Source: Caldifarciminota bacterium (GTDB lineage Bacteria; Hydrothermota; Tepidihabitantia; SM23-42). From it: a DNA stretch of 41,265 bases. This document shows, in pieces, positions 6,801 to 41,149 of this stretch. The position numbers and the translations under genes were made by a program. The stretch's first letter is position 1. Every line of letters begins with the position of its first letter. Below the pieces are notes generated by a model. It worked only from the letters and a program-made list of their open reading frames with translations, was not told the origin of the DNA and did no database searches. Location of the stretch: NCBI GenBank assembly GCA_020355325.1, contig CP070664.1, positions 2,280,296 through 2,321,560 on the forward strand, in the 5' to 3' direction.

Positions 6801-6828
6801 ATTATACCATACATACATACATTGTCAA
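6801..6828 (-). promoter_or_regulatory. Promoter of the AhpF-like gene (leaderless)
   Basis: On the minus strand TTGACA (6823-6828), a 16-bp spacer and TATAAT (6801-6806) are perfect. Only CATCT separates the -10 from the ATG at 6795, so transcription should start at or next to the A of the ATG. Confidence 0.85.
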
Positions 6829-16712: not shown

Positions 16713-17864
16713 TTATTGAAGAGTACGGGTATCAAATTGCAACGTCCGTGAAAACATTGGCAACATATGCTCTTCAATTCTCTCGCGCACTTTGTTGCTG
16801 TGACCGCCCTCAAATGCTATCAATGTATGAGGTATCTCTGCACCATCGAGTAGTTTTCCAAAATAGACACAGCCCTCTGGAATCCACTCATAGTAGTCAT
16901 TGATACCATAATCAATCATGATGGCTTTGAGTCTCAATAAATTATCATGGTAACGTTTTACCTTGTCGGCAAGACCTCCAAAGCCATTTCTATACTTTTC
17001 CCATAGCACACTGTCCAGTACAATATCTGTTCCACTCTGGCGATATGGGTAATCAATGTAAGGCGCTTTTTTATGCGGGTTAGGTGAAAACGCTGCACCA
17101 TACGCATACTCAAAGGCTCTGTCATCATCACCCTCGACAATAGCAAGGTGAGCCATGAAGGACAGAAAGGCTACTATCGCTTCATCTTCGGTCATCACTT
17201 CGAATTCCCTTTCTTTTTTGAGGTATCTTCGTATGGTCGTCCCGGATGCGAACATGATATTCTTCGACAGACCATTCTCATCAAAGAGTCCTGGACACAA
17301 CGCATACGTTGCACCGAACACGTCGGGATGGAGCATTGCCAGATTGAGTGCACCAAATCCACCCATTGAGTGGCCAGCGATACCACGTGCGCCCGCATGA
17401 GGCAGTGTCCTGTAATGGCTGTCGACATAGCCTACAACCTCTTTCACAATGAAGTCTTCCCAATTTCCAGTAACGGATGAATTGACATAAAAACTGCCCA
17501 TCATGAAGGTGACTCCATTTGGAATAACAACAATCATCTCCTTTATCGCTCCCTCGCGTATCAGCTTGTCCATCGAGTTCTGCAAAAGGAAACCCTGGAA
17601 CACACCATATCTGGTGAAGTATATAATCGGAGTGCCAAATCCAGGAAGGAAATAAACCACTGGATATTGAGTGTTCGATGTTGTATACGACGGCGGTAGA
17701 TAAATTACGATTGGCTGCTCTGTCGGAATGCTTACTATATTATTTGCGAGCGAAGGTGCGGGAACATTTATCTCGACGAGCTGACCTTCTGCTGTCTGTG
17801 CTCTTAGATGAAATGCTATAGAAGTGAGTACTACAACGTAGAGAAAAAACCTGATTATCTTCAT
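16713..17864 (-). CDS. Exported alpha/beta-hydrolase esterase (esterase D/Ag85-like)
   Basis: 383 aa. A signal peptide (1-22, ending HLRAQ) directs export. The family pattern is IVIYLPPSY, YPVVYFLPGFG, an oxyanion region, and the nucleophile elbow GIAGHSMGGFGALNLA with S166. Later come YGINDYYEW and FEGGHSNKV, which supply the likely Asp and His (around residue 360). It hydrolyses an ester; the natural substrate (acylated carbohydrate, lipid or xenobiotic) is unknown. Its ATG overlaps the TGA of the TetR-type gene (17861-17864), so the regulator and esterase are coupled and the regulator probably controls it. Confidence 0.88.
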   Translation of the reverse strand: MKIIRFFLYVVVLTSIAFHLRAQTAEGQLVEINVPAPSLANNIVSIPTEQPIVIYLPPSYTTSNTQYPVVYFLPGFGTPIIYFTRYGVFQGFLLQNSMDKLIREGAIKEMIVVIPNGVTFMMGSFYVNSSVTGNWEDFIVKEVVGYVDSHYRTLPHAGARGIAGHSMGGFGALNLAMLHPDVFGATYALCPGLFDENGLSKNIMFASGTTIRRYLKKEREFEVMTEDEAIVAFLSFMAHLAIVEGDDDRAFEYAYGAAFSPNPHKKAPYIDYPYRQSGTDIVLDSVLWEKYRNGFGGLADKVKRYHDNLLRLKAIMIDYGINDYYEWIPEGCVYFGKLLDGAEIPHTLIAFEGGHSNKVRERIEEHMLPMFSRTLQFDTRTLQ

Positions 17865-18739
17865 GCTATCTCTCCTCCCATTCTATTCCTCCTGGTCTTT
17901 TTTATATAATCTTTCCATGCAGGATTTTTGGCGAGAACAGCACGTGCGGTCTGCTGTGCAGCCTTACGGTTCAGTACTTGTGTCTTTTCAAAAAAAGTTA
18001 TCATCGTGTTCAGCACTTCGTTGAATGGTCTGATCGTGCCGTCTTCGCGGGCACAGTATTTACAATAAATTTTACTCATATCACCCATTGGAAAGTCCTC
18101 TGCAGAATGGAAAATCATTCCACAGCTCTGGCACAGCTTTTTTTCTTCTAATAATCCCTCCTCATGCCTTTCTTCTTTCGGACGAGAAGTGCTGCTAAAG
18201 GAAAGCAAGCGTTGAATGAACTTCTCTGATATTTTCTTTTTATCGAACATGTAGTCACCAAAGAATGATAAATAAATGAGTGCACCCTGCCACAGGATGG
18301 TTCGGACAAGACCATTATCAGTCCACTTATTAAATGCCTCAACCAAATAGTAATTGATGACCGACAAGAGTGAGAGCACTTCTTGTTTGGTTCTGTCGTT
18401 GAATTTCGAAAATCCAGAGAAAAGGGCCTTGAACAATGCCCAATTTGTGCGTACCGCTTCAACGTGTACCGAAAGAAATGCTTCTAAATTATTGGCATTC
18501 TTATAAGCCTCATAGAGCGCATCCGTCATTCTCTTGACCAAACGCTTCACCACCGCCAGCACGAGTTCATCACGATTTTTGAAATGAAAGAATATCGTGC
18601 CGTGTGCGATCCCTGCCTTTCGTGCAATAGCAAAGGTCGATGCCTTAAAATCGGTGTTCACAAACGTGGCTTCAGCAATATCCAGAAGCCTCTCCCTCGT
18701 GGCTAGCTTCGCCTCACTCCGCTTTGTGCTCTTTCTCAT
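17861..18739 (-). CDS. TetR-type regulator fused to a zinc-ribbon domain
   Basis: 292 aa from the ATG at 18739, preceded by GAAAGGAGGTTT. An upstream frame to 18781 would run through the operators and is rejected. Residues 12-65 are the TetR HTH (LLDIAEATF, AIARKAGIAHGTIFFHFKNRDEL). Residues 66-185 are the helical ligand/dimer part. At about 201-232 there is a zinc-ribbon-like unit with C203/C206 (CQSC) and C226/C229 (CKYC), similar to the small putative zinc-ribbon family, followed by a helical tail. Two palindromes overlap its own promoter, so autorepression is likely. The esterase follows by a 4-nt overlap. The fusion is uncommon, and the extra domain may sense metal or redox state. Confidence 0.88.
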   Translation of the reverse strand: MRKSTKRSEAKLATRERLLDIAEATFVNTDFKASTFAIARKAGIAHGTIFFHFKNRDELVLAVVKRLVKRMTDALYEAYKNANNLEAFLSVHVEAVRTNWALFKALFSGFSKFNDRTKQEVLSLLSVINYYLVEAFNKWTDNGLVRTILWQGALIYLSFFGDYMFDKKKISEKFIQRLLSFSSTSRPKEERHEEGLLEEKKLCQSCGMIFHSAEDFPMGDMSKIYCKYCAREDGTIRPFNEVLNTMITFFEKTQVLNRKAAQQTARAVLAKNPAWKDYIKKTRRNRMGGEIA

Positions 18740-18751
18740 AAACCTCCTTTC

Positions 18752-18780
18752 TGAGTATATACTCATTGAGTATATACTCA
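18752..18780 (-). promoter_or_regulatory. Twin palindromic operator
   Basis: TGAGTATATACTCA is a perfect 14-bp palindrome and occurs twice, at 18752-18765 and 18767-18780, separated by one base. The pair lies directly downstream of the -10 box and covers the expected transcription start, the usual place for a TetR repressor. Confidence 0.85.
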
Positions 18781-18808
18781 ATTATAATGAAAATTTGCCA
18801 TTTGTCAA
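18781..18808 (-). promoter_or_regulatory. Consensus promoter of the TetR-esterase operon
   Basis: Minus strand TTGACA (18803-18808), 16-bp spacer, TATAAT (18781-18786). Both hexamers are perfect, and the operators abut the -10. Confidence 0.88.
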
Positions 18809-20562: not shown

Positions 20563-21546
20563 ATGGCAGATCTTTCAACGAACTACGTGGGATTACAATT
20601 ACATAATCCTATAATCGTAGCGAGTTGTAGCTTAGTCAATACCGTCGAAGGAGTCCAACAATGCGCAGATGCCGGTGCGGGCGCTGTTGTGCTCAAGTCT
20701 CTCTTTGAAGAACAGCTCGAAGCTGATACCAAAGCGTTACAACAAAACGTCTGGCTTGCCGGGCATGCTGAGGCATTTGATTATGTTCGGAATATGGGCA
20801 TAGAACTCGGATCACAGGACTATCTAAAATTGGTAGAAGGAGCAAAAAAGAAACTTTCCATTCCTGTTATTGCAAGTCTCAACTGTATAACACCCACGTG
20901 GTGGACTGATTACGCAAAGAGAATCGAGCATGCCGGAGCCGATGCCCTGGAGCTCAATATCGCCGTATTACCGAGTAACACGAATCGCACCAGTAACGAA
21001 ATAGAACATCTGTATTGCGATATTTTAGAGGCAGTAAAACAGAGTGTGAAGATACCCATCGCAGTGAAAATCGGTCCTTATTTCACGTCAATCGCACGGA
21101 TGGCACACGAGCTCTGCAATCGTGGTGCATCGGCCTTGGTTCTCTTTAATCGTTTCTATCAACTCGACATCAATATCGAGACCCTTGCGCTTGTACCTGG
21201 TTACCGATTAAGCTCGCGTGAGGAAATGAGTCTGTCCCTCCGCTGGATTTCATTACTTGCTGGACGGGTGAAGTGCGACCTCGCTGCTACGACTGGGGTT
21301 CATGACGGAATCGGCGTCATAAAACAGTTGCTCGCCGGAGCCACGGCTGTGCAGGTCTGTTCTACCCTCTATCTCAATGGTGTAAAGTATATTGAAACGA
21401 TACTGACCCAACTAGGAGAGTGGATGGATCAGCATACATTCGGTTCTATCAATCAAATAAAGGGCAAGCTCAGTCAAGTGGAGAGCGATCGTCCTGAATT
21501 TTATGAACGACTGCAGTACATCAAGGCGCTCGTCGGTATTGAGTAA
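20563..21546 (+). CDS. Dihydroorotate dehydrogenase-like flavoprotein
   Basis: 327 aa, a TIM barrel of the DHOD/FMN-oxidoreductase superfamily. Visible: YVGLQLHNPIIVASC at the N-terminus, VVLKSLFEEQ, IPVIASLNCI, ALELNIAVLP, IPIAVKIGPYF and the phosphate-binding end DLAATTGVHDG then GATAVQVCSTLYLNG. True class 1 enzymes have NLSCPN with the catalytic Cys after the ELN strand; here it reads ELNIAVLPSN, so the base is missing and orotate formation is doubtful. This is the group usually named dihydroorotate dehydrogenase-like. AAGGAGGT precedes the ATG. It is separated from the methyltransferase operon by a promoter, so joint function is not implied. Confidence 0.82.
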   Translation: MADLSTNYVGLQLHNPIIVASCSLVNTVEGVQQCADAGAGAVVLKSLFEEQLEADTKALQQNVWLAGHAEAFDYVRNMGIELGSQDYLKLVEGAKKKLSIPVIASLNCITPTWWTDYAKRIEHAGADALELNIAVLPSNTNRTSNEIEHLYCDILEAVKQSVKIPIAVKIGPYFTSIARMAHELCNRGASALVLFNRFYQLDINIETLALVPGYRLSSREEMSLSLRWISLLAGRVKCDLAATTGVHDGIGVIKQLLAGATAVQVCSTLYLNGVKYIETILTQLGEWMDQHTFGSINQIKGKLSQVESDRPEFYERLQYIKALVGIE

Positions 21547-21800: not shown

Positions 21801-23261
21801 ATGAGACCGGTCGTAAGATTCTTGAGTGATGGATTGGTTGAAAGAATAGTGGAAGAGGCAAGAGAGGTTCTTTGTAAACTCGGTGTACAAATTTACAACG
21901 TGAATATTCTTACACGATTGGCAGATTATGGTGCACACGTCGATACAGAGAAAATGCACACACTCCTTACAGACGAAATTATTGATATGGCGTTGTCAAC
22001 GGTCCCCCGATCGTTCAAGCTCTATAATATTCTTGGTCACGAAACGCACAATTTTTCGGGTTACAATGTGTATTTCACACCGGGTTCTGCTGCGCTGTAT
22101 ATCCTGGACTCCAAGACGAAAAAAACTCGCAAGCCGAAAACAGATGATTACATCATGTATGCGAAGCTTATAAGCCGACTGGAAAACATCGCTTCTCAAA
22201 GCACAGCATTTATTCCCGAAGATGTTCACGAAAAAATCTCGGATAGCTACAGGCTTTACCTGAGCCTCCTCTTCTGTGAAAAACCAATTATCACAGGGGC
22301 ATTTACGGCAGGAGCATTCGCAATCATGAAAGACCTCCAGCTCGCCATTCGTGGTACAAGACAAGAACTCGCCGCAAAACCGCTCACAATATTCTCCTGC
22401 TGCCCAACGTCACCGATAAAATGGAGTGATGTGACGTCGCAGAATGTCGTCGATTGTGCTCGTTACTCGATTCCGGTAGAATTCGTTTCTATGCCATTAT
22501 CAGGATTCATGGCTCCGGTGACCCTTGTTGGCACACTGGTGCAGCACACCGCTGAGACCTTGAGTGGGATTGTCATAAGCCAGCTCACAAATCCAGGAAC
22601 TCCTGTTCTCTATGGTGGCTCTCCTGCTATATTTGATGTTCGATACGAAACCACCCCCATGGGTGCAGTTGAGACACAAATGCTCGACTGTGCATTTAAC
22701 GAGATTGGAAAATACATAGGTATTCCAACCCAGGGTTACATTTCACTGAGTGATGCAAAACAACTCGATTCTCAGGCAGGGCTCGAATCGTCGATGGGTG
22801 CAACCCTCGCTGCACTTTCTGGCATCAATAACATATCAGGACCAGGAATGCTCGACTTTGAAAACTGTCAGAGTTTTGAAAAGCTCGTTCTCGACAACGA
22901 AATCTGTGGAATGGCGCTTCGTATGATAGAGGGAATCGAACCGAAAGAAGACTTCCCTTCGGTACCGCATTTAGAGGAACTCATAAAGGAAAAACACCTT
23001 TTGATATCGAACCATACGCGTCGCCATTTCAAGAAAGAATTTTATATCCCAGGGCCTACTATTGATCGAGCAAGTAGAAAACGATGGCAAGAGGAAGGAA
23101 GTGTGACGCTTTGGGAGAGGGCACACAGAGAAGTGGAAAAACATGTGCGTGAGTACACGCCGTCGAGAATTCCAGATACTACGAAAAAAGACCTCACAAA
23201 ATTGATGGAGATAGAAGCCCGTCGTTATGGTATGAACCGTCTTCCTCAAATATCTCCATGA
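21801..23261 (+). CDS. MttB-family (trimethylamine-type) corrinoid methyltransferase, non-pyrrolysine
   Basis: 486 aa, matching the MttB/COG5598 family in length and pattern: FTPGSAALYILD, the GTPVLYGGSPAIFDV strand, PTQGYISLSDAKQLDSQAG and FEKLVLDNEICGMALRMIEG. Members move a methyl group from a methylated amine or betaine onto a corrinoid protein. There is no in-frame amber codon, so it belongs to the non-Pyl (MtgB-like) branch whose known members use quaternary amines such as glycine betaine; the substrate here is unknown. AAAGGAG lies 9 nt before the ATG. It is the first gene of a tight operon; its TGA overlaps the next ATG (23258-23261). Confidence 0.9.
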   Translation: MRPVVRFLSDGLVERIVEEAREVLCKLGVQIYNVNILTRLADYGAHVDTEKMHTLLTDEIIDMALSTVPRSFKLYNILGHETHNFSGYNVYFTPGSAALYILDSKTKKTRKPKTDDYIMYAKLISRLENIASQSTAFIPEDVHEKISDSYRLYLSLLFCEKPIITGAFTAGAFAIMKDLQLAIRGTRQELAAKPLTIFSCCPTSPIKWSDVTSQNVVDCARYSIPVEFVSMPLSGFMAPVTLVGTLVQHTAETLSGIVISQLTNPGTPVLYGGSPAIFDVRYETTPMGAVETQMLDCAFNEIGKYIGIPTQGYISLSDAKQLDSQAGLESSMGATLAALSGINNISGPGMLDFENCQSFEKLVLDNEICGMALRMIEGIEPKEDFPSVPHLEELIKEKHLLISNHTRRHFKKEFYIPGPTIDRASRKRWQEEGSVTLWERAHREVEKHVREYTPSRIPDTTKKDLTKLMEIEARRYGMNRLPQISP

Positions 23262-23992
23262 GAGAGATCATCGAAATCCCGCTTGACAAGGTCAAGCCGC
23301 ACAGGACTGATGTTTTAAGAACACAGGGTGTTACACCAGGCAAAGATACTTCTCATAACGTAGAAAAACCTCTCAGAAAAGCAATAGAATTATTCCTCGA
23401 GTATGCTCATCCAGTCGGTGTCCTTGGTGATATACCACTCCCTCAATTTGAAGATGTCTATAAAGGTGATGGAAAAAATGAAACGAGTACGCCACTCGAC
23501 GAAATCTTCAAGAAAGCAGAAGCCCTGGCGCTCTTTGCAGTCACTATAGGAGAAGAGATAAGTCAGAAGATATCTCAGCTTTTCAAAAAAAATGAACTCG
23601 TTCTTGGCAGTATGTTGGACGGCGCTGCCTCGGTCGGAGTTGACAACACAGCCGATTTCATCGAAAACCATTTTTTAACGATGCTCATTAAAAGAGGAGC
23701 AGCGACGAGTGCGACAGCAGTGCTACGATATAGTCCAGGTTATTGTGGATGGCATATGAGCGGGCAGAAAAAACTCTTTACCTACCTCAAGCCAGAGGAC
23801 ATCGGCATATCACTCTTGGATAGCTTTCTCATGAGGCCTTTAAAATCCATTTCAGGAGTATTGATTGCTGGACCGAGAGAAATCCACGTGTTCGAGGACT
23901 CATATCCGTTCTGCGCTGAATGTAAAACACATTCGTGCCGCGAGCGAATAGAGGCACTCTTCAAAGAATCACGGTACAATAATAGGGTGTAG
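23258..23992 (+). CDS. MetH-type cobalamin reactivation-domain protein
   Basis: 244 aa, corresponding to the C-terminal activation domain of methionine synthase as a free-standing protein (known also from Thermotoga). In MetH this domain binds SAM and, with a reduced flavodoxin, re-methylates oxidised cob(II)alamin. Visible signature: VLRYSPGYCGWHMSGQKKLF (155-174), then GISLLDSFLMRPLKSISGVL. A Cys cluster near the end (C219, C222, C227) is extra and of unknown use. Amine methyltransferase systems normally use the ATP-dependent iron-sulfur activator RamA instead, so this points to methionine-synthase chemistry. It overlaps the mttB-like stop by 4 nt and ends 1 nt before the corrinoid gene. 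Confidence 0.88.
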   Translation: MREIIEIPLDKVKPHRTDVLRTQGVTPGKDTSHNVEKPLRKAIELFLEYAHPVGVLGDIPLPQFEDVYKGDGKNETSTPLDEIFKKAEALALFAVTIGEEISQKISQLFKKNELVLGSMLDGAASVGVDNTADFIENHFLTMLIKRGAATSATAVLRYSPGYCGWHMSGQKKLFTYLKPEDIGISLLDSFLMRPLKSISGVLIAGPREIHVFEDSYPFCAECKTHSCRERIEALFKESRYNNRV

Positions 23993-23993
23993 T

Positions 23994-24632
23994 ATGGATA
24001 CAGTACACAATATATCGGTGAGTCTGCAATCGGGTGATTATGAAAGAGTTTCTGCTTTCACAAAACAGGCACTTGAAAAAAACATACCACCAAAAGAGAT
24101 ACTCGATAGAGGCTTGATTAGTGGTATGAATATCGTCGGTGAAAAATACAAAACACATGAAATCTTTCTTCCCGATGTGCTTCTTGCCGCGAAGGCGATG
24201 TATGCAGGCATGGATATTTTAAAACCATTATTTATTGAAGAGGGAATACCTACAATGAGTACGGTTGTAATAGGTTCGGTTCAAGGCGACTTGCATGACA
24301 TCGGAAAGAATCTTGTTGGCATCATGCTCAAGGGTGCTGGCTTTGAGGTCATCGACCTCGGCAACAATGTTGCTCCTGAAAAATTTATCGAAACTGCAAA
24401 GACTCATCATGCCTCTGTTATTGCGATGTCTGCTCTCCTCACGACGACAATGCCGGTTATGAAAAGAGTTGTTGAACTATTGAGAAGAGAAAGACTCAAG
24501 GGAAAGATTAAGACCATCATTGGTGGGGCGCCGGTTACCGAAGCCTTTGCTCGAGAGATCGGTGCAGATGCATATGGGTATGATAGTGCACACGCGGTTG
24601 ATGCCGTGAAACGACTCGTAGGAAGAACTTGA
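23994..24632 (+). CDS. Corrinoid (B12-binding) methyl-carrier protein
   Basis: 212 aa, the usual size of MtbC/MttC/MtgC-type carriers. An N-terminal helical cap (1-85, YKTHEIFLPDVLLAAKAMYA) precedes a Rossmann-type B12 domain with GDLHDIGKNLV: D99-x-H101-xx-G104, where H101 is the lower axial cobalt ligand. VIDLGNNV, SALLTTTM and IIGGAPVTEAFA then form the rest of the pocket. It shuttles the methyl group between the MttB-like enzyme and an acceptor enzyme. GGTGT before the ATG is a weak SD; translation is probably coupled to the preceding gene. Confidence 0.93.
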   Translation: MDTVHNISVSLQSGDYERVSAFTKQALEKNIPPKEILDRGLISGMNIVGEKYKTHEIFLPDVLLAAKAMYAGMDILKPLFIEEGIPTMSTVVIGSVQGDLHDIGKNLVGIMLKGAGFEVIDLGNNVAPEKFIETAKTHHASVIAMSALLTTTMPVMKRVVELLRRERLKGKIKTIIGGAPVTEAFAREIGADAYGYDSAHAVDAVKRLVGRT

Positions 24633-24683
24633 GAAACGCTGACAGGAAGACAACGAGAAAGGGGTATGTATGAAACACAGTGT

Positions 24684-24738
24684 CACGGAGACAAGGAAAA
24701 GTAAGAAAGGGAGACTTGGAGATACGGAGAAAGGGAGC
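24684..24738. repeat. Purine-rich octamer array
   Basis: Four adjacent 8-nt units of pattern NNNGGAGA: AAGGGAGA (24707), CTTGGAGA (24715), TACGGAGA (24723) and AAGGGAGC (24731). Looser units (CACGGAGA, CAAGGAAA) lie just before. It fills the 129-nt gap between the corrinoid gene and the homocysteine methyltransferase. Confidence 0.65.
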
Positions 24739-24761
24739 ATCTTTTAAAATAGAAATTTGGT

Positions 24762-25652
24762 ATGAAAAAGTTTCTTGAGCGGATTGAAGATGGTGAGGTG
24801 CTCGTCGGTGATGGTGCAATGGGTACCATGCTCATGGAACGTGGTCTGAAACCAGGAGACCCACCGGAGTCTTTCAATCTAACACATCCTGAGATCGTAC
24901 AGGAGATTGCCAGTCTGTACCTCGATGCAGGAGCAGACATAATCCAGACCAATACGTTTGGAGGCTCGCCGCTCAAGCTTTCATTCTACGGGTTCGAGGG
25001 CAAAACAGAAGAAATCAACAGGAACGGTGTTCGCGCAGTACGTGTAGCTATCAACGATCGTGCCTACATCTCAGGGTCCTGCGGACCATCAGGAAAATTT
25101 CTGAAACCATATGGTGATATTGAACCCGACGAGATGTACCGCAATTTTGAACGACAGGTCCGCGCGCTCATCGATGCCAGTGTTGACATCATATGCATAG
25201 AGACGATGACCGACTTGCATGAAATAACACTCGCTATCGAAGCAACAAAAACCATCTCACCGGACACGCCAGTTATGGCAACGATGACGTTCGATGCAAC
25301 ACCACGAGGTTTTTACACGATAATGGGTGTCAGTATAAAAGACGCATCACGAGGACTCGAGCGGGCTGGCGCCAATATCATAGGTTCAAACTGTGGCAAT
25401 GGCATCGAGAACATGATAAAGATTGCAAAAGAATTCAAGCAATACACAGATTTGCCAATCGTCATTCAGTCGAATGCTGGAATACCAGAGATACATGGTA
25501 CGACAACAATATATCCTGAAACTCCTGATTTTACGGCAAAAAAGGCAAGGGATCTCCTCTCCATTGGCGTATCAATCATCGGAGGCTGCTGCGGAACAAC
25601 ACCTGAGCACATTAAGGCACTCAGAGCCATGGTTGATGCCTCTCATACATAG
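24762..25652 (+). CDS. Homocysteine S-methyltransferase (MetH N-terminal domain type)
   Basis: 296 aa, equal to the homocysteine-binding barrel of cobalamin methionine synthase. Visible: VLVGDGAMGTMLMERGL (13-29), QTNTFGGSPLKL, YISGSCGPSGKFL. The zinc thiolate site that activates homocysteine is C211 (GSNCGNG) with C276/C277 (GGCCGTTP). There is no pterin, B12 or activation domain attached, and no THF-binding protein is in the window. Together with the three genes upstream it would form a distributed methionine synthase. The product would be L-methionine; the cytoplasmic methyl donor is the corrinoid protein. No good SD is near the ATG, and the 129-nt gap leaves open separate transcription. 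Confidence 0.92.
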   Translation: MKKFLERIEDGEVLVGDGAMGTMLMERGLKPGDPPESFNLTHPEIVQEIASLYLDAGADIIQTNTFGGSPLKLSFYGFEGKTEEINRNGVRAVRVAINDRAYISGSCGPSGKFLKPYGDIEPDEMYRNFERQVRALIDASVDIICIETMTDLHEITLAIEATKTISPDTPVMATMTFDATPRGFYTIMGVSIKDASRGLERAGANIIGSNCGNGIENMIKIAKEFKQYTDLPIVIQSNAGIPEIHGTTTIYPETPDFTAKKARDLLSIGVSIIGGCCGTTPEHIKALRAMVDASHT

Positions 25653-25745: not shown

Positions 25746-25773
25746 TTGACAATGCCCAATAAATCAATATAAT
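25746..25773 (+). promoter_or_regulatory. Promoter of the 149-aa gene (leaderless)
   Basis: TTGACA (25746-25751), 16 bp, TATAAT (25768-25773). The ATG at 25781 is 7 nt further on, at the expected transcription start. An ATG at 25772 lies inside the -10 box and cannot be the start. Confidence 0.8.
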
Positions 25774-41121: not shown

Positions 41122-41149
41122 TTGACAGAGATGACGGTGTTAATATAAT
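41122..41149 (+). promoter_or_regulatory. Promoter of tRNA-Pro
   Basis: TTGACA (41122-41127), 16 bp, TATAAT (41144-41149), with the tRNA beginning 9 nt after the last base of the -10. Confidence 0.88.

Follow-up and report, generated by a model that had tools for sequence, protein, structure and literature searches.

A four-gene cassette of uncultured bacteria as a candidate folate-independent, corrinoid-dependent methionine synthase

Could a bacterium make methionine with a B12-dependent synthase whose modules are separate proteins and in which an MttB-family enzyme stands in the place of the pterin-binding module? The question is raised by four consecutive genes in a 41,265 nt stretch of a Caldifarciminota bacterium genome (GenBank assembly GCA_020355325.1, contig CP070664.1, positions 2,280,296 to 2,321,560; hereafter the window), which is a single contig of 2.85 Mb. 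A sequence-only reading of the window had taken these genes to encode the modules of MetH as separate proteins, fed by a methylated amine or betaine, and the open reading frames (21801-25652) together with Pfam domain calls, each above its family cut-off, confirm the separate modules and their families. We think it reasonably probable that the four genes form a distributed, folate-independent, corrinoid-dependent methionine synthase with a methylated-amine donor and a redox reactivator, for which modules, residues, gene order, conservation, and the pattern of co-loss with other genes are observed, and the chemical steps and methyl donor are inferred. The cassette and its promoter are laid out as follows:

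21801 to 23261, + strand: non-pyrrolysine MttB-family methyltransferase (the MttB-like protein), 486 amino acids, PF06253
23258 to 23992, + strand: stand-alone MetH activation-fold protein (React), 244 amino acids, putative corrinoid reactivator, PF02965
23994 to 24632, + strand: corrinoid carrier, 212 amino acids, PF02310 with a PF02607 cap
24762 to 25652, + strand: MetH-type homocysteine S-methyltransferase barrel, 296 amino acids, PF02574
21595 to 21622, + strand: perfect sigma-70-type promoter TTGACA-N16-TATAAT, about 180 nt 5' of the mttB-like gene

The mttB-like and React genes overlap by 4 nt, a gap of 1 nt lies between the React and carrier genes, and one of 129 nt between the genes for the carrier and the barrel. 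Because the promoter precedes the mttB-like gene and the next perfect TTGACA-N16-TATAAT (25746-25773) comes just 3' of the cassette, the four genes are probably transcribed as one message. The tight spacing, the perfect promoter, and a gene order kept across phyla argue that the grouping is not due to chance.

In the proposed mechanism, the MttB-like enzyme would, judging from its family, demethylate a small methylated nitrogen compound and load the methyl group onto the Co(I) carrier; the methyl-Co(III) carrier would dock on the zinc barrel, which would activate homocysteine and yield methionine and Co(I); and carrier oxidised to Co(II) would be rescued to Co(I) by the MetH-fold React. The middle step is proposed because the MetH-type residue set is complete: the barrel (230 bits against S-methyl_trans, PF02574) keeps the Zn ligands C211, C276, and C277 and Glu147 in 51/51 sequences, and the carrier keeps the cobalt-ligand motif D99-x-H101-x-x-G104 (DxHxxG) in 63/63 homologues. 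The barrel is nearest to the homocysteine modules of MetH and YitJ, matching T. maritima MetH (1q7m) at E 2.7e-52 but BHMT only at about 1e-22. For the carrier the best NCBIfam model is MtgC (NF047996, 214 bits, under its cut-off), and the MetH model TIGR02082 gives 143 bits.

As the sequence-only reading held, the pterin module is replaced by a non-pyrrolysine MttB-family enzyme: Pfam finds no PF00809 within the cassette, and the pyrrolysine site (Pyl334 of M. barkeri MttB) is Leu316 in the MttB-like protein, with no in-frame stop. The protein scores 240 bits against PF06253 and 346 bits against the pyrrolysine MttB model TIGR02369, under the cut-off of 525, and its Met231 and Gly95 align with the active-site Met249 and Gly110 of M. 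barkeri MttB (positions from PMC9842639). The nearest solved structures are MtgB (2qne/9yce) and MttB (7xcl), and Foldseek searches with the predicted structure give M. barkeri MttB and D. hafniense MtgB as about equal matches, with template modelling scores of about 0.83-0.85. From the enzyme family, the methyl donor is probably a quaternary amine of the betaine or choline type. The MttB-like protein is the most conserved and slowest-evolving of the four (mean pairwise distance 0.30), and the pairwise distances of the four proteins correlate with one another (r 0.63-0.82), which suggests a single specific substrate. A second PF06253 protein occurs in none of the 21 genomes, the window's included, that carry the cassette-type MttB in our set of 80 genomes. 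Plasmid-borne roseobacter MttB-family proteins share only 25-28% identity with it. The Rfam model PYLIS_3 passes its cut-off inside six relatives' mttB genes (L083, L089, L098, L111, L124, and L141), but pyrrolysine in these genes is rejected, as the frames are open and the site has no stop; the model therefore reflects mttB sequence similarity.

The proposed reactivator has the MetH fold and is not RamA, again as first read. React matches Met_synt_B12 (PF02965) at 37 bits, and its AlphaFold model (predicted local distance difference test 95) finds TM0269 (1j6r, E 5e-13; also its match by sequence), followed by MetH activation domains (6bm5, E 1.6e-8). RamA (PF14574) is absent from the window's genome and from 13/13 cassette genomes of its family, and present in 5/10 family genomes without the cassette (Fisher P 0.007). 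The label "S-adenosylmethionine (SAM)-type" fits the fold less ambiguously than the residues: the SPGY loop is kept, but only about half of the homologues have Arg at the position of R157, which aligns with an arginine that MetH activation domains share and that contacts SAM in E. coli MetH. In contrast, four cysteines are invariant in 63/63 real homologues, leaving out one row (L080) that is an assembly gap artefact: C163, which lies in the SPGYCGW loop, and the three of C219-x2-C222-x4-C227, close to the C terminus. Because these four cysteines are invariant whereas the MetH arginine is not, React likely carries a metal or Fe-S centre with a redox role and probably acts at least partly by electron transfer, rather than purely by SAM-driven reductive methylation. 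In the 1j6r alignment a Gly stands at the position of C163, and the C-terminal cysteine segment lies outside the matched region. The cysteine-bearing reactivator may be broader than the four-gene cassette, since one genome (G072, contig 57, L161:5864-7534) has a unit of two genes, with no MttB or carrier gene adjacent, in which a homocysteine methyltransferase is paired with a short, divergent stand-alone PF02965 protein that ends in CSRCNFKNC. We found no description of a cysteine-bearing MetH reactivator in the literature searched, whose coverage largely leaves out preprints and subscription papers.

The linkage predicted for the mttB-like and homocysteine methyltransferase genes extends well beyond the window. 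In the 80-genome set the four genes stand together in 15/20 relatives besides the window; of the other five, three are truncated at a contig end or by a gap, one has no detectable React, and one is unlinked (G072, 49% identity). An apparent loss of the cassette in G022 is rejected as a run of N in the assembly, and in G069 (contig 97, L165:105-566) an open reading frame judged by eye to be transposase-like interrupts the cassette between the gene for MttB and that for the reactivator. In the GTDB species collection, at least 570 relatives of the MttB-like protein were confirmed. The best 80 of these (66-79% identity, nearly all labelled metagenome-assembled genomes, MAGs) belong to Stahlbacteria/WOR-3, Cloacimonadota, Zixibacteria, Phycisphaerae, Aminicenantes, Bacteroidetes, Fermentibacteria/Aegiribacteria, Neomarinimicrobia, KSB1, Myxococcota, and Acidobacteria. 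Among 60 named loci with at least 3 kb downstream, the homocysteine methyltransferase gene is linked in 48 and all four genes in 44 (42 ordered as in the window and 2 beginning with React), which places the cassette in uncultured bacteria of about ten phyla. Flanking genes are conserved only inside one genus, and since nothing else is conserved around it more widely, the cassette looks self-sufficient.

If the cassette makes methionine without folate, it might be expected to stand in for the folate-dependent enzymes, and the sequence-only reading asked whether cassette genomes lack metE and a pterin-bearing metH. In part they do. PF01717, the MetE/Mes catalytic domain, is absent from the window's genome and all family genomes searched, and metH is missing from 7/13 cassette genomes of the family and from 0/10 others (Fisher P 0.007, with the fragmentary G007 scored as metH present), though 6/13 keep it. 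Five cassette genomes (the single contigs G005, G018, and G020, together with G021 and G048) have no metH, MTHFR, or PF01717, and their sole PF00809 protein is FolP (called by NCBIfam in all but G021, where the call rests on the same gene neighbourhood). All five have homocysteine/cystathionine proteins of the pyridoxal phosphate family. A sixth (G016) lacks metH and keeps the MTHFR gene, and within the family the loss of metH or MTHFR occurs only in cassette genomes, except for one MTHFR miss in G008. Farther away, in the complete Zixibacteria chromosomes G081 and G082, the cassette barrel is the only PF02574 protein and PF01717 is absent. The cassette thus appears to be the only methionine synthase in some sister genomes, and a folate-independent route to methionine is likely because several near-complete sister genomes that carry it are devoid of metH and MTHFR.

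Several observations weigh against this interpretation, the most direct of them from the window's genome itself, which retains the following:

own genome C1:482-486 kb: metH with homocysteine, pterin, and B12 modules (L051:5329-7650) and the adjacent MTHFR gene (L051:4340-5176)

The cassette is therefore not the sole methionine route here, and would work beside a folate-dependent metH/MTHFR pair. The sequence-only reading had counted a full metH or metE together with an mtgA-type gene against itself; a metH with a pterin module is present, and no stand-alone mtgA or acsE gene was found in this genome, where PF00809 is confined to FolP and the pterin module of metH. Among genomes at least 90% complete, the difference in metH loss (5/9 versus 0/4) is not significant (P 0.098); losses within one genus are not independent; and the cassette genomes are MAGs, so apparent absences may be gaps. 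In many members of the same class no methionine synthase can be recognised, so that methionine auxotrophy of the cassette-only genomes is possible. The MttB-like protein shares about 26-28% identity with MttB and MtgB when the structures are aligned, and its clade is distinct from characterised members. Beside the cassettes examined, an Rfam scan found no SAM or cobalamin riboswitch, and no transporter for betaine or another specific donor was seen. Two side observations concern the same enzymes. The metH protein of the window's genome (773 amino acids) has no activation domain, and the genome has no RamA; perhaps React also reactivates this protein. A third homocysteine S-methyltransferase gene (C1:119 kb, L052:5922-6837) is split over two frames, probably as a pseudogene or through a sequencing error, and unsplit versions occur in sister genomes such as G004.

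Three other explanations could account for the cassette. The retained metH and MTHFR genes speak for an ordinary split MetH, in which methyl-tetrahydrofolate (methyl-THF) would be the donor through a pterin protein encoded elsewhere, such as the genome's own metH, and the MttB-like protein would be an accessory; separate pterin subunits are indeed found in Ruegeria and Phaeobacter (PMC12478193; PMC5764234). We regard this as improbable, because the five genomes without MTHFR have no pterin protein except the FolP type, which disfavours methyl-THF as a hidden donor, and because the supposed accessory shows the strongest conservation among the four. Somewhat less improbable, though still unlikely, is that the cassette serves chiefly in catabolism, as an amine demethylase acting on an osmolyte, with homocysteine replacing THF as a methyl sink by way of methionine and SAM. 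MttB-family enzymes of known function are catabolic (PMC12478193; PMC8604678), MtgC is the model nearest to the carrier, and cassette and metH coexist in 6/13 family genomes. However, each genome has a single MttB, next to which there is neither a folate acceptor nor RamA nor any additional gene for demethylation, and the family's losses of metH and MTHFR, G008 aside, coincide with the cassette.

The third explanation concerns the direction or target of the flow: the barrel could act on another thiol, or methyl groups could move from methionine or a methylated sulfur compound to an acceptor amine. PF02574 members vary in substrate and corrinoid methyl transfers are reversible, but passing a methyl group from methionine to an amine is unfavourable in energy. 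Corrinoid gene clusters for methyl-selenium or methyl-sulfur compounds do exist (PMC10418091); the barrel, however, retains every ligand and is most similar to the homocysteine modules of MetH and YitJ, and we give a different flow as little credence as a split MetH.

How far does an amine-fed methionine synthase depart from what is described? The closest known system is MtgBCDE of Ruegeria, where one corrinoid carrier couples a PF06253 enzyme to a homocysteine subunit of PF02574, a pterin subunit (MtgD) is essential for both methionine synthesis and demethylation, and a RamA-like protein and a DUF1638 protein are the predicted reactivators (PMC12478193); the P. inhibens system resembles it (PMC5764234). 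The cassette shares the separate PF06253 enzyme, carrier, and PF02574 subunit, the single carrier, and the frequent absence of a classical MetH from the genome, and it differs in having no pterin subunit, no RamA, a compact operon, and a MetH-fold reactivator. The claim that no described system has exactly this set therefore stands for the exact set, of which we found no description within the same literature coverage, but has a near neighbour in Ruegeria. The split MetH of T. maritima (TM0268/TM0269) likewise has a homocysteine/zinc module, a B12 module, and an activation-fold protein, but in the cassette the pterin module is absent and the MttB-like enzyme takes its place, and React has a three-cysteine C-terminal extension and an SPGY-loop cysteine, none of them in the 1j6r alignment. 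Desulfitobacterium MtgB (2qne/9yce) and Methanosarcina MttB (7xcl) also pair an MttB-family donor enzyme with a cognate corrinoid protein; in these demethylase systems, which rely on RamA, the methyl group ends up on THF or coenzyme M, whereas the acceptor in the cassette is the homocysteine barrel. Synthesis of methionine without folate, as proposed here, is known from the core methionine synthases MesA-MesD, of which MesA-MesC are thought to draw methyl groups from corrinoid proteins (PMC7857596), but these belong to the MetE family (PF01717), and the cassette barrel is a member of the MetH N-terminal family that comes with a donor enzyme of its own. BHMT shares the PF02574 barrel, and its net betaine-to-homocysteine reaction is possible for the cassette; however, BHMT is one enzyme that transfers directly and without B12, and the cassette barrel is far closer to MetH by sequence and linked to a carrier, which speaks against direct transfer here. 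What sets the cassette apart is the lack of a pterin step, the distinct reactivator, and the compact conservation across uncultured phyla.

Two neighbours were considered as members of the cassette, the upstream dihydroorotate dehydrogenase-like gene (20563-21546) and the downstream DUF6982 gene, and both are rejected because their neighbourhood with the cassette is not conserved. Elsewhere in the window, 17861-18781 encodes a fusion of a TetR-type regulator N-terminus and a putative zinc ribbon (PF00440 and PF12674). The promoter of the cassette belongs to a wider pattern: the window has seven perfect TTGACA-N16-TATAAT sequences (at 2869, 6801, 18781, 21595, 25746, 34725, and 41122) against 0.02 expected, and no perfect TTGACA/TATAAT with an N17 spacer. 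Another 11 perfect promoters occur in 175 kb of related loci, always with N16. Only 6 nt lie between the end of the promoter at 6801 and a start codon, as would suit a leaderless mRNA, and that at 41122 lies 8 nt 5' of a tRNA.

More tentatively, and at rather less than even confidence, we propose a widespread folate-free methionine route in which an amine-fed, four-protein B12 machine has replaced MetH and MTHFR in lineages of several uncultured phyla, with a cysteine-ligated, probably iron-sulfur, redox protein as its reactivator. If this is true, many uncultured bacteria, mostly of sediments, would obtain methionine, and hence SAM, from the methyl groups of osmolytes without methyl-folate, and their methionine supply would be tied to the availability of betaine or methylamines. 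Genome tools that look for MetH, MetE, or MTHFR would then miscall such bacteria as methionine auxotrophs. The cassette would also represent a synthase that needs B12 but no folate and uses the MetH barrel, as opposed to the MetE barrel of the known Mes enzymes, and its reactivator would bring corrinoids back into use by a mechanism unlike both SAM-driven MetH and ATP-driven RamA.

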